This document shows positions 4,163 through 44,058 of a DNA stretch of 64,000 bases, piece by piece. This DNA is from Paractinoplanes durhamensis (GTDB lineage: Bacteria; Actinomycetota; Actinomycetes; Mycobacteriales; Micromonosporaceae). Numbering within the stretch: the stretch's first letter is position 1; each line of letters starts with the position of its first letter. The position numbers were made by a program, and so were the translations under genes. The DNA lies in NCBI RefSeq assembly GCF_016862175.1, contig NZ_BOML01000040.1, positions 124,001 through 188,000 of the forward strand, in the 5' to 3' direction. The notes beneath the pieces were generated by a model that was not told the DNA's origin, did no database searches, and saw only the letters and a program-made list of their open reading frames with translations.

Positions 4163-4182
4163 ATACGGGTAGGGGGTATGCT
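4163..4182 (+). promoter_or_regulatory. CsoR-type operator overlapping the csoR -10 element
   Basis: The reverse complement of 4163-4179 is ATACCCCCTACCCGTAT, a 17-bp inverted repeat (ATAC...GTAT around C/G runs) of the form bound by actinobacterial CsoR. It overlaps a -10 element TATGCT (4177-4182) lying exactly six bases before the csoR ATG. Bound CsoR would therefore block its own leaderless promoter, and Cu(I) would release it. Confidence 0.7.
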
Positions 4183-4188
4183 GGCGTC

Positions 4189-4494
4189 ATGTCCGAAGAA
4201 TCGACGTCGCACCATGGTCCGCACGGTTACTCCGGTGACAAGGCGGCGCTGCTCGGGCGCCTCCGGCGCATCGAGGGACAGATCCGCGGGCTGCAGCGGA
4301 TGGTCGACGAGGACACCTACTGCATCGACGTTCTGACTCAGATCTCCGCGGCCAAGAGTGCGCTCCAGGCGGTGGCGATCGGCCTGCTCGAGGACCACCT
4401 GGCCCACTGCGTCGTCGACGCGGCGCGGGCCGGTGACCCGAGCGCCAAGGTCAAGGAGGCGTCCGACGCGATCGCGCGGCTCGTGCGGTCCTGA
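4189..4494 (+). CDS. csoR: CsoR-family copper-sensing repressor
   Basis: A 101-residue DUF156/CsoR protein, a four-helix-bundle repressor that leaves DNA when Cu(I) binds. The copper ligands are present with the spacing of mycobacterial CsoR: Cys45, then His70 (25 later) and Cys74 (4 later). A His-containing tail (residues 8-12) precedes the core. It lies just upstream of copZ and a putative copper-binding membrane protein, and a CsoR-type operator overlaps its promoter, so autoregulation is likely. No P-type copper ATPase is in the window, so export must be encoded elsewhere. Confidence 0.93.
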   Translation: MSEESTSHHGPHGYSGDKAALLGRLRRIEGQIRGLQRMVDEDTYCIDVLTQISAAKSALQAVAIGLLEDHLAHCVVDAARAGDPSAKVKEASDAIARLVRS

Positions 4495-4615: not shown

Positions 4616-4828
4616 ATGGCTGTGACCAGCACCTACACCGTGACCGGGATGACCTGCTCGCACTGCGTCCAGGCAGTCACCGGCGAGCTCACCGCCCTGC
4701 CGGGCGTCGCGGAGGTGCAGGTCGACCTGGCCTCCGGCGCGGTCACCGTGACCAGCGAGACGCCCCTGGCTGCCGACGACGTGCGCGCCGCGGTGGACGA
4801 GGCCGGCTACGAGCTCGCGAATGCCTGA
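4616..4828 (+). CDS. copZ: CopZ-like copper chaperone (HMA domain)
   Basis: A 70-residue single heavy-metal-associated domain. The Cu(I)-binding loop is GMTCSHC, with Cys14 and Cys17, near the N-terminus, and the rest fits the ferredoxin-like HMA fold. It should carry Cu(I) in the cytoplasm to exporters or to CsoR. ATG 4616 is chosen because GAAAGG sits about eight bases upstream; a longer in-frame reading upstream crosses the low-complexity spacer and csoR and is not credible. Its stop overlaps the start of the next gene by eight bases, indicating co-translation. Confidence 0.92.
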   Translation: MAVTSTYTVTGMTCSHCVQAVTGELTALPGVAEVQVDLASGAVTVTSETPLAADDVRAAVDEAGYELANA

Positions 4829-6185
4829 CGGCTCAGCCGCCGAAGACGCAACCGGCGCCGGTCTGCGGCCGTCCGGCAGCACAACCGATGCCGGTGAGCG
4901 ACTGTCCAGCGGCGGCGGCGTGGCGGAGCAGCGGTCCGGCGGGGTCGAGCAGCCGACCAGCGCGGTCGAGCAGCACGCCTACGCGGCTGAGCAGCACGCC
5001 TACGCGGCTGAGCAGCACGTTGGAGCCGCGGAGCGACAGCCAGCCGCAGCCGCGGCTGAGCAGCAGGTCGGAGCAGCGGAGGAGCAGCAGGCCGGAGCCG
5101 CGGCTGAACAGGACGCTGGAGCAGCGGAAGAGCAGCAAGCCGGAGCCACGGAAGAACCGGTTGGCGGGAGTGAGCGCGATCTGACCGCGATCGGTCTCTC
5201 GGAGACGACCGCCGCGGGCGACAAGGCCGGGTTCCGACTGGCGGCCTTCGGCGCGCTGCTGATCGTGGTGCTCTTCGCGGGCTACGGCCTGGGCCGCCTG
5301 AACAACGGCACCGCCTCGGCGTCGGCACCACCGGCGACCGGCGCCGGAACAGGCACCGGCAGCGGCACAGGCACCGGCACCGGTGCGGCGATGCCGGGCA
5401 TGGACGAGAGCCAGCCGCACGCTCACGCCACCGACGGCACGGTCACCCAGACCGGCACCGCCGCCGCGACCTCGGTCGGTGCGGCGGTCGGGGGACTCTC
5501 GCTGAGCTCCGGCGGCCTGACCCTGGTGCCGGGCACGACGACGTTCGCGGCCGGGAAACCCCAGCGTCTCAGCTTCCGGATCACCGGGCCGGGTGGGGCG
5601 CCGGTCACGACGTACGCGATCGTGCACGAGAAGCTTTTGCACCTCATCGTGGTCCGGCGGGACCTGACCGGCTTCCAGCACCTGCATCCGAGCATGGCCG
5701 CCGACGGCACCTGGGGCATCGACCTCACGCTGCCGAACCCGGGGATCTACCGGATGGTCGCCGACTTCACCGCGGTCGTCGGTGGCGCGCCGATCGCCAC
5801 CACGCTCGGCAGTGACCTCACGGTGGCCGGAAACTACGCACCGGCGGCCCTGCCCGCGCCGATCAAGGCGGTGGCGACCGACGGGTTCGCGGTCGGCTAC
5901 GAGGGTGCGCCCAGCACGAAGTCGACCCAGCCGCTGCTGATCGGCGTGGCCGGGCCCGACCACCAGACCGCGGTGCTCGAGCCCTACCTGGGCACCTACG
6001 GTCATCTGGTGGTGCTACGGGCGGGCGATCTTGCCTACGTGCACGTCCACCCGGAGACGCAGCTGGTCGACGGGAAGGTCAAGTTCTGGGTGTCGGTGCC
6101 GAGCGCCGGGACCTACCGGATGTTCTTCGACTTCCAGGTGGCCGGCCAGGTGCACGACGCGGCCTGGACGGTCGCGGTCAACTGA
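4821..6185 (+). CDS. Membrane-anchored, His-motif copper-locus protein with heptad-repeat N-terminus
   Basis: A 454-residue protein translationally coupled to copZ. Residues ~36-115 are degenerate 7-9-residue repeats (EQHAYAA and variants), likely disordered or helical and cytoplasmic. One membrane segment follows (AFGALLIVVLFAGYGLGRL), then a Thr/Gly linker, then an extracytoplasmic region with two related blocks: HLIVVRRDLTGFQHLHP and HLVVLRAGDLAYVHVHPE. These His-rich paired motifs resemble the YtkA/FixH-like beta-sandwich proteins seen beside copper genes. Metal binding or copper delivery outside the membrane is inferred from the histidines and neighbours; no enzymatic motif is visible. 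Its end overlaps the convergent methyltransferase by eight bases. Confidence 0.75.
   Translation: MPDGSAAEDATGAGLRPSGSTTDAGERLSSGGGVAEQRSGGVEQPTSAVEQHAYAAEQHAYAAEQHVGAAERQPAAAAAEQQVGAAEEQQAGAAAEQDAGAAEEQQAGATEEPVGGSERDLTAIGLSETTAAGDKAGFRLAAFGALLIVVLFAGYGLGRLNNGTASASAPPATGAGTGTGSGTGTGTGAAMPGMDESQPHAHATDGTVTQTGTAAATSVGAAVGGLSLSSGGLTLVPGTTTFAAGKPQRLSFRITGPGGAPVTTYAIVHEKLLHLIVVRRDLTGFQHLHPSMAADGTWGIDLTLPNPGIYRMVADFTAVVGGAPIATTLGSDLTVAGNYAPAALPAPIKAVATDGFAVGYEGAPSTKSTQPLLIGVAGPDHQTAVLEPYLGTYGHLVVLRAGDLAYVHVHPETQLVDGKVKFWVSVPSAGTYRMFFDFQVAGQVHDAAWTVAVN
4926..5160 (+). repeat. 21-27-bp coding repeat array in the copper-locus membrane protein
   Basis: About eleven consecutive units begin GAG-CAG or GAA/GAG and encode EQxxxAA-type heptads. 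Two adjacent 21-bp units (4968-5009) are identical, so recent slippage is likely. Reading frame is kept throughout. Confidence 0.75.
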
Positions 6186-41646: not shown

Positions 41647-42099
41647 TCAGTGCTTCTGGTTGCGGATCGCCTGCACGCCCACGGTGACCGCGCCGAGGGC
41701 CGCTCCCGGCACCAGCAGCCACACCGGCCACGGGTAGATCGAGCCGTCCACGCTCGCCACCACCAGGCCGAAAACCACCAGGTTGACCACGGTGACCGCG
41801 GCCCAGATGGTCCAGAGCACGAGCAGCGCGACCGGCAGCCGTCGCGCTCGGCGGCGCTCCTCCGCCTGTCGGCGAGCGGCGACGTCGGTTGCGCTGAGAC
41901 CGGGCCGCGGCAGGTCCGAGACGAGCACAAGCAGTTCCTGGTACGTCTTGGCGCCGTACGCGTCGCGCACCCGGTCGTCGTATTCGTGGAGCGACAACCG
42001 GCCCTCGTCGAGCGCGGCCTTCAGCTGATCGGCGACCTTCTGCCGGTCGGCGTCGGCCGCCCGAAGCGTCTCGACATCGGCCCGCGTTTCTTTCCCCAT
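41647..42099 (-). CDS. DUF1707 membrane protein
   Basis: A 150-residue protein. The N-terminal DUF1707 domain (residues ~6-60: LRAADADRQKVADQLKAALDEGRLSLHEYDDR in part) is a small actinobacterial helical domain of unknown role, often found with membrane or signalling modules. Two membrane segments follow (LPVALLVLWTIWAAVTVVNLVVF and WLLVPGAALGAVTVGV). ATG 42099 is preferred over ATG 42117 because GGAGGGAG lies six bases upstream. Function unknown. Confidence 0.83.
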   Translation of the reverse strand: MGKETRADVETLRAADADRQKVADQLKAALDEGRLSLHEYDDRVRDAYGAKTYQELLVLVSDLPRPGLSATDVAARRQAEERRRARRLPVALLVLWTIWAAVTVVNLVVFGLVVASVDGSIYPWPVWLLVPGAALGAVTVGVQAIRNQKH

Positions 42100-42147
42100 C
42101 GGACGCTCCCTCCCCATGGATGCGGGGACACATTATCCGAGAAACGT

Positions 42148-42634: not shown

Positions 42635-42651
42635 GTACCCCTGGGGGGTAT
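42635..42651 (-). promoter_or_regulatory. Second CsoR-type operator, upstream of the DUF4396 gene
   Basis: Read on the minus strand, 42651-42635 is ATACCCCCCAGGGGTAC, an almost perfect inverted repeat of the CsoR consensus form and very close to the site in front of csoR. A -10-like TTTTAT/TATACC overlaps its upstream end, so binding would block transcription. Confidence 0.72.
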
Positions 42652-42704: not shown

Positions 42705-43964
42705 CTATGCGGCGAGCTGCTGTTGCGCGCGCTCCTCCACCCGGCGGTCGGCGCGAGCGATCGAGCCGCTCGGCACCGCCGCCACCAGCGCCGCGATCAC
42801 CAGCACGCTGCCGGCGAAGACGAACGCCCACGGCAGCCCGCCCGGCCGGTCCACGATCGCGCCGGCCACCGCACCGCCGGCCGCGCTGCCGCCGACCGAG
42901 ACGGTCACGGTCCAGGTGTACGCCTCGTTCAGCATCGCGGCCGGCGCGAGCCGCCCGACCAGCGTGTTGCCGACGGTCAGCGCCGGCGCGATGGTCACCC
43001 CGCCCAGCACCAGCGCCATCCCCAGGTAGAGCGGGCTCGGCATCGCGGTCAGGATCAGGAAGCTGACCGCGACCGCCCCGAGCAGCCAGGCGAACTGCCG
43101 GGTCAGGGCCATGGTGGGCCGCCGGGTGCCGAACCAGATGCCACCGATCGCGCTGCCCACACCCCAGATGCCGAGGAGTACGCCGCCGAGGCCGTCCCCG
43201 CCGCCGTGCTGCCCGGCGTACGCCGGAACGATGACGCCCGCGGCGCCGAACGCCGTTCCCAGCGCGACCACGCAGATCATCAGGGCCGGGAAGCCGCCCG
43301 CGGTGAGCGGGCCGAGCCCCTTGGCCGCGTGCCCGCTGTGCTGCCGGGGCCGCTGCCGCATCACCGGCAGCCGGGAGATCCAGCCGGTGCCGACGAAGGT
43401 GGCGACCGCGGCCGCCAGCAGCGCCGACGCCGGCCGGTGGGTGATCACCACGAGCGCCGACACCAGGATCGGGCCGAGCACGAACACCAGCTCGAAGAGC
43501 GAGGTCTCGGCGGCCAGCGCGGCGCCGCGCAGATGATGCCGGCCGGAGCCGGCCTCGGTCATGTTGTTCCAGCCGCGCCGGATCGCCGCGGTCAGCGGGG
43601 GATAGGTGGCGCCCGCGACCGCCGACGCCACGAAGATCCATGGCAGGGCCGCCTCGCCGCCGCGGCTCACCAGCACCAGGCCGACGAGCGCGAGCGGGTG
43701 CAGCAGGGCGGTGGCGAGCAGGATCGGGGCCGGCCCGATCCGGTCGGCGAGCCGCCCCGCGATCGGGCTGACGGTGGCGCCGGAGATCGCGTAGACCCCG
43801 CCGGTGAGGCCGGCCGCCGAGTAGCTGCCGGTGGTCTGCTGGACGAGCAGCAGGAGCGCGAGCGGCGTCATCCCGATCCCGAGCCGGGCCAGGATGCCCA
43901 CGCTGAGCAGGACCCGGCCGCCGGGGAGCCGCCAGACGCCGACGTACTGACGCAACGCGGCCAC
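42705..43964 (-). CDS. MFS exporter (AraJ/EmrD-like)
   Basis: A 419-residue, 12-segment major facilitator. [14 protein letters not shown] is the signature loop between segments 2 and 3, and the second half repeats it weakly ([11 protein letters not shown]). A drug or sugar efflux role is typical; the substrate is unknown. GTG 43964 is chosen over longer frames because GGGGAGG lies six bases upstream. The next gene downstream is DUF4396, across 80 bp holding the CsoR site. Confidence 0.83.
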
Positions 43965-44058
43965 GTCTCGCCTCCCCGTGTAACGACCCGACCTGCGTTC
44001 CGACCCTAACCGGGAAACATCCCGGAAATACATGGCCGGTAATGCGGAACACATGGCG

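Follow-up and report, generated by a model that had tools for sequence, protein, structure and literature searches.

A predicted CsoR operator, kept in related actinobacteria, points to a copper-related role for the DUF4396 membrane protein

Why a gene for a small membrane protein of a family without assigned function, DUF4396 (PF14342), should be preceded by a palindrome resembling the operators of the copper repressor CsoR, 38 kb away from csoR, is the question raised by the locus analyzed here, in a 64,000-base stretch of the Paractinoplanes durhamensis genome (the window). CsoR is a standard copper switch of actinobacteria, and the addition of a conserved membrane protein to its regulon would give an entire Pfam family a role that can be tested. 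Regulation of this gene by CsoR turned out to be strongly supported, while the biochemistry of its product can be proposed more cautiously. A copper switch lying before the gene, and kept in most of the close relatives examined, makes it very probable that DUF4396 helps handle excess copper.

The features discussed are collected in Table 1. The gene downstream of the site does encode a DUF4396 protein, as had been proposed: the match to PF14342 has an E-value of 2.6e-41 and 141.7 bits (curated cut-off 27) and covers profile positions 4-141 of 141, as befits a nearly full-length member. It is the only PF14342 match in the 10.5 Mb genome, and its closest named relative, 94% identical, is found in Paractinoplanes ferrugineus; NCBIfam and PHROGs gave no match for it. 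Upstream, the MFS gene has its 3' end at the site and facing the operator, which is therefore placed to serve DUF4396; service to the MFS gene was rejected for this reason. The DUF1707 gene on the other side could be co-transcribed with DUF4396; no evidence places it in the unit.

Table 1. Coordinates of the features discussed (window positions unless otherwise stated)
Feature	Coordinates	Strand	Remarks
Imperfect CsoR-type site ATACCCCCTACCCGTAT	4163..4179	.	nine bases before the csoR ATG; 10.4 bits
csoR, copper-type repressor	4189..4494	+	PF02583, E 6.4e-31; YC.D...H...C residues
copZ-like copper chaperone, HMA domain	4622..4828	+	PF00403, E 2e-16
Uncharacterised protein X, after copZ	4821..6185	+	no Pfam match
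DUF1707 protein	41647..42117	-	30 bp downstream of DUF4396
DUF4396 (PF14342) membrane protein, 161 aa	42148..42633	-	four predicted helices; TTG 42633, alternative in-frame ATG 42624
Predicted CsoR type-2 operator ATACCCCCCAGGGGTAC, 17-mer	42635..42651	-	TAC-X9-GTA, arms TACCCC/GGGGTA; 23.9 bits
MFS transporter	42705..44054	-	upstream of DUF4396, same strand; outside the unit
Sulfur cluster with second CsoR-family repressor	G000:C56:145000-161000 (L007)		six N4 operator-like sites

The preliminary description had read the minus-strand 17-mer as a nearly perfect CsoR palindrome. This holds, since its arms are perfect over 6 bases each, the outermost pair (A/C) being mismatched, and it is the sole occurrence of TACCCN3-6GGGTA in the window. 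The Streptomyces type-2 CsoR operator is described, in the available passages of PMC3902906, as TAC-X9-GTA with G-tracts (consensus ATATACCCCTNAGGGGTATAT), and S. lividans CsoR is reported there to require TAC and GTA 9 bp apart. Positions 42636-42650, reading TAC-CCCCCAGGG-GTA, fit this rule, and G/C tracts are present inside the repeat (TACCCC...GGGGTA). The S. lividans/coelicolor CsoR regulon (csoR, copZA1, copZA2) has the same operator class; three CsoR-bound sites are named in those passages, none of them before a DUF4396 gene.

A scoring matrix trained on 67 sites, all from other genomes, ranked the DUF4396 site first in the window, followed by the csoR-promoter site and by a third place at 0.5 bits. 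That the first two are very similar, as originally stated, proved to be overstated: they differ at 5 of 17 positions, and the csoR site is imperfect (it is one of the 7 places where ATAC-N9-GTAT occurs in the 10.5 Mb). The TTG start of DUF4396 is one base after the 17-mer and the in-frame ATG ten bases after it; in the 66 loci with a strict site described below, the median distance from site to first in-frame ATG or GTG is 31.5 bp. Neither a sigma-70-type promoter nor a terminator was found by consensus search around 42635-42651. The repressor encoded in the window carries, at Y44, C45, H70 and C74, the YC.D...H...C motif, given as the metal motif of Cu(I)-sensing CsoR in the accessible part of PMC4531530.

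Conservation was evaluated in a set of 80 loci, mostly actinobacterial, obtained from 93 listed places by excluding the window itself and 12 others, mostly fragments or weak matches. In 66 of the 80, the region from -350 to +30 relative to the DUF4396 match contains a strict TACCCN5GGGTA site; with spacers of 3, 4, 6 or 7 bases the count is zero each time, as it is for each of the reversed patterns. Elsewhere in these loci, 15 N5 sites were found in 931,683 bp. The 14 loci without a strict site include four in which copZ and copA, preceded by the operator, come first and DUF4396 follows them with the same orientation (Aeromicrobium, L087; Kribbella, L088; Saccharopolyspora endophytica, L103; a Pseudonocardiales MAG, L120). 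csoR is present in the first three of them, where the gene order is csoR-copZ-X-copA-DUF4396; 7 of the 80 loci have a relative of protein X between copZ and copA, and three of these continue into DUF4396. One more locus shows a near-match (L130), four show weak, imperfect candidates (L117, L153, L160 and L164, the last at -440 and scoring no better than another place in the same locus), and five show nothing (L092, L105, L108, L139, L150).

Other taxonomic depths were sampled as well. Within the bacterial family of the window, the strict site precedes 28 of the best 30 places (misses: L022, L046) and 30 of 34 further places encoding the HCLxGC type of the protein (misses: L177, L194, the fragment L206, and L189, which has an imperfect upstream site of 13.9 bits), or 58 of the 64 HCLxGC-type genes taken together. 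The other motif subtypes of the same bacterial family, which serve as an internal control, have the site in 0 of 14 cases; two fragments, L214 and L216, were counted in neither subtype. A second actinobacterial genus has the N5 site at 28 of 29 loci (30 places were listed, the thirtieth, L050, belonging to the phylum sample). In the phylum sample, 12 of 15 HCLxGC loci have it, the remaining ones being L051, which has an N4 site, L057 and the fragment L076, as against 0 of 13 other DUF4396 loci, a group in which some are fragments and four match the family weakly, scoring below its cut-off. The upstream stretch searched began at -350 for the 80 loci, -400 for the phylum sample and -450 for the second genus and the further loci of the bacterial family, and ended at about +30 to +60. 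All these counts cover related species, which are not independent, and lists of best matches favour the HCLxGC type. The gene is missing from 22 of 81 genomes of the second genus, where copper defence consequently does not need it.

The recurrence of the site bears on the simplest objection, namely that the palindrome arose by chance or is a structural repeat, with no regulatory role. TACCCN3-6GGGTA occurs at 17 places in the whole genome, against 6 for the reversed control. In favour of the objection, three of the six N5 (15-bp) sites in its 10.5 Mb, scoring 15.0, 12.8 and 6.1 bits, look incidental, no copper gene being seen nearby. A site standing before one gene family in most of the 80 loci, and absent at every control spacing and in reversed form, nevertheless leaves chance a practically negligible probability.

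The motif scan of the genome, which had been proposed as a check, also sets the three strongest N5 sites apart by their neighbours. The DUF4396 site ranks first; the second (22.2 bits) lies 12 bp ahead of a gene for a copA-type ATPase and has a divergent oxidoreductase gene on its other side, and the third (21.1 bits) is flanked by a DUF305 gene and by a short His-rich ORF. In this genome csoR, copZ and X lie together at 4-6 kb of the window, DUF4396 38 kb away and the copA-type gene on another contig. Each of these three dispersed units has a CsoR-type site, so that the "second operator" of the preliminary description can be seen as one piece of a dispersed copper regulon.

The genome encodes two PF02583 repressors, the second of which lacks YC.D...H...C, and look-alike sites accompany both. 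It is therefore conceivable that the DUF4396 site belongs to the second protein, likely a persulfide sensor (CstR-like), and that DUF4396 answers sulfane sulfur. The gene of the second repressor has rhodanese and metallo-beta-lactamase-rhodanese genes as neighbours in its cluster, together with genes that look, by eye, thioredoxin- and TauE-like; six operator-like sites of the N4 (14-bp) type lie in this cluster, which is probably a persulfide (CstR-type) regulon, and one more such site lies before a pyridine-nucleotide oxidoreductase gene, SQR-like by eye. The S. coelicolor SCO0620 persulfide repressor and CstR belong to the same superfamily as CsoR and have near-identical half sites; however, according to the part of PMC7533328 available, their targets are sulfur genes and the S. 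coelicolor site, ATACCn6GGTAT, is one base shorter. The cluster sites agree with that sequence, whereas the site at 42635-42651 has N5 spacing and does not conform to ATACC-N6-GGTAT with its TACCC-N4-GGGTA core. The shorter spacing of the sulfur-cluster sites makes the copper CsoR the likely regulator of DUF4396. An N4 site does precede three HCLxGC-type genes, L051 and the fragments L206 and L214, but none is found upstream of DUF4396 in the 80 loci or in the 29 of the second genus, and strong N5 sites keep company with copper genes; control by the persulfide sensor is thus very unlikely. In L206 and L214, fragmentary HCLTGC-type genes, the upstream site is one base short and has perhaps decayed along with the gene. 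A further N4 site, TACCCTCCTGGGTA, ends in ATAC/GTAT and is found where a gene resembling groES by eye begins, a groEL-like one following (L013:1942; G000:C41:3941-3954); it is possibly a persulfide-type operator before a chaperonin operon. Spacing may provide a simple rule, N5 for copper and N4 for persulfide, to separate look-alike regulons, drawn from one genome and two published Streptomyces regulators.

Spacing, agreement with the Streptomyces consensus in the passages of PMC3902906, genome-wide ranking and conservation before DUF4396 all uphold the original reading: as judged from sequence, 42635-42651 is very probably an operator of CsoR, and DUF4396 a CsoR-controlled gene.

Gene company was examined next to the operator evidence. 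Relatives of csoR, copZ, copA or DUF305 were found near 13 of the 80 loci, some of the others being short contigs; most cases accordingly rest on the operator. Among 21 plasmid contexts, picked by hand from matches in 36 + 109 records, 13 have a copper-linked gene, the metal specificity of ATPases in these contexts being known by annotation or similarity only. A Kineococcus plasmid has csoR, HMA, ATPase and DUF4396 genes behind two sites; in S. liliifuscus, CopC and DUF305 genes belong to the context, and in S. clavifer a gene for a four-helix copper-binding protein adjoins DUF4396. Copper-linked contexts are also found in two Halomarina, Caballeronia, Rubrobacter, M. lentiflavum, Hymenobacter and A. 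caldus, and in Deinococcus aetherius, where the oxidase sequence was seen in the search with the fusion protein described below. All four Streptomyces plasmids examined have an N5 site before DUF4396. Four genes follow one another on one strand in Ensifer: one that looks HMA-like by eye, DUF4396, one for a copA-type ATPase and one for a MerR-family regulator. The first two of them are each preceded by a repeat-like CTTGACC...CAACGGTGGGAA, presumably CueR/HmrR-like. A Bradyrhizobium BTAi1 protein combines DUF4396 and a multicopper oxidase in a single fusion, with an extra hydrophobic stretch in between (L166:5776-7668); places covering at least 80% of this protein were found in 22 plasmid records, including other proteobacteria, Deinococcus and cyanobacteria, and several cyanobacterial plasmids have DUF4396 and a "copper oxidase" annotated as neighbouring genes. 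On Kineococcus and Streptomyces plasmids, a gene for an F510_1955-family "glycosylhydrolase" adjoins DUF4396 (L078:6652-7584, L080:4894-5799).

The other 8 plasmid contexts leave some room for a different role under CsoR control, in which the protein would move or repair copper-damaged haem, thiols or another metal, its Cys and His residues being structural. No copper gene was seen in the contexts of S. globisporus, S. tendae, Kozakia, H. jeotgali, S. casei, B. japonicum and Methylomagnum, nor in that of Frigoribacterium, where DUF4396 begins at base 1 and the upstream side falls outside the record; the 2.5 kb S. casei plasmid is entirely devoid of TAC-N9-GTA. The HCxxxC motif also varies in other subtypes (HCVAGD, HCGAGC, HCATHC), its second Cys being replaced by Asp (HCVAGD/HCLAGD) in BTAi1, A. 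caldus and Hymenobacter. Against these observations, the multicopper oxidase fusions, the metal-ATPase neighbours and the differing types of regulator found across phyla all point to copper, and make another substrate improbable. A direct role of DUF4396 in copper handling appears likely from the sequence comparisons.

The conserved Cys/His core ascribed to the protein was recovered in two alignments, of 40 and 56 sequences (the first, A1, left out 5 family rows, long-type rows and fragments; the second, A2, took 55 of the 80 loci). Invariant in both are, among others, H19, C20, G23, C24, G27, E28, D83, S86, M90, E91, D94, N95, N133, G140, G142, H143 and H147. The His-rich tails are also real, though variable, and either N- or C-terminal. 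Four proteins outside the alignments (L177, L181, L194, L210) end in GHAVVPH in place of GHAVVHxxH, the last His being shifted. L177 and L194 are each the second copy in their genome and have no operator; this ending was considered as a mark of operator-less copies and rejected, because L181 and L210 keep the site.

As to topology, loops 1-2 and 3-4 contain almost no Lys or Arg on average, against a mean of about 2.5 to 3 of these residues in loop 2-3 and likewise in the C-terminal stretch, which, by the positive-inside rule, places both ends in the cytosol; the HCxxxC and GHA-His motifs are accordingly predicted at the cytosolic face. The periodicity of the invariant residues suggests a metal path over helices 1 and 3. 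The AlphaFold2 model features four long helices (mean pLDDT 81.6, pTM 0.70). Its best Foldseek E-values, 0.48 against the PDB and 0.63 against viral models, are in the range of chance helical-bundle matches, and the best VIA-align Z, 8.8 with a bacterial dynamin, is within that of common helical bundles. A profile search against the sequences in the PDB returned no relative (best E 0.26). With no clear structural match to the model, nothing in the fold says transporter.

From these observations we infer the following course of events. At low copper, CsoR would occupy 42635-42651 and so cover the region in which the gene starts, blocking transcription; Cu(I) binding would release it, as for S. 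lividans CsoR at its own operators, and DUF4396 would then be produced alongside CopZ and CopA. With four membrane helices and both ends in the cytosol, the protein would capture cytosolic Cu(I) by the HCxxxC motif, where helix 1 reaches the cytosol, by GHA-His just after helix 4 and by the His-rich tails. A polar stripe on helices 1 and 3 (C20, C24 and E28; D83, M90, E91, D94 and N95) might pass the ion outward or, alternatively, deliver it to a partner protein such as CopA, or a multicopper oxidase in other phyla. DUF4396 is in our view probably a dispersed member of the copper regulon, repressed by CsoR, that captures Cu(I) and exports it or hands it on.

Whether it exports or hands on is a finer question. 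It is quite possible that DUF4396 transports Cu(I) rather than buffering it. It may instead be a membrane-anchored Cu(I) buffer or chaperone feeding CopA or, in other phyla, multicopper oxidase, and no transporter: its variable-length His-rich tails and predicted cytosolic motifs would suit such a function, as would the oxidase fusion and the operons that, in some species, also contain copZ and copA. D83, M90, E91, D94 and N95, however, are invariant inside the predicted membrane part, where a mere anchor would not need them, and most DUF4396 copies are not beside copA; buffering is only slightly less probable than transport. Carried to its full extent, the transport reading would make DUF4396 a Cu(I) transporter of a new class, small and with four helices, induced through CsoR in actinobacteria and through other regulators elsewhere, with a Cys-Cys-Glu / Asp-Met-Glu-Asp-Asn path working without ATP, and, in other phyla, with the fused multicopper oxidase oxidising copper on its arrival outside. 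This proposal, as a whole, we consider rather unlikely.

In the literature searched, DUF4396 is named beside a metal-resistance cluster, in the available part of PMC7760498; no further mention of its name, and none of its accessions, was found. The available passages on CsoR do not name it, an earlier mention under a gene number being possible: further predicted CsoR targets, listed in the portion of PMC6414726 at hand, are SCO1044, SCO3280, SCO4137, SCO7265 and SCO6710 (glycosyl hydrolase), and one of the first four could be a DUF4396 protein. No mention of the plasmid cop cluster was found in the accessible part of the Kineococcus radiotolerans copper proteome paper (PMC2928746), and the word "copper" is absent from the Actinoplanes paper PMC7682106. 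Copper modulates development and antibiotic production in Streptomyces, according to the same portion of PMC6414726. Our results suggest that copper handling in actinobacteria includes a component beyond CopZ and CopA.

DUF305 is another "unknown" family found in the same copper neighbourhoods, and belongs to a different Pfam family. Its members are known as exported proteins rather than four-helix membrane proteins, and we take CopM to be one of them. CopM is a copper-binding protein involved in copper resistance, as stated in the part of PMC4335983 available. In the window's genome, the strong N5 site next to the DUF305 gene is located 27 bp before the divergent His-rich ORF, of 139 aa (L009:2597-3058; G000:C21), which has no Pfam match and looks, by eye, like the truncated N-terminus of a copper ATPase.
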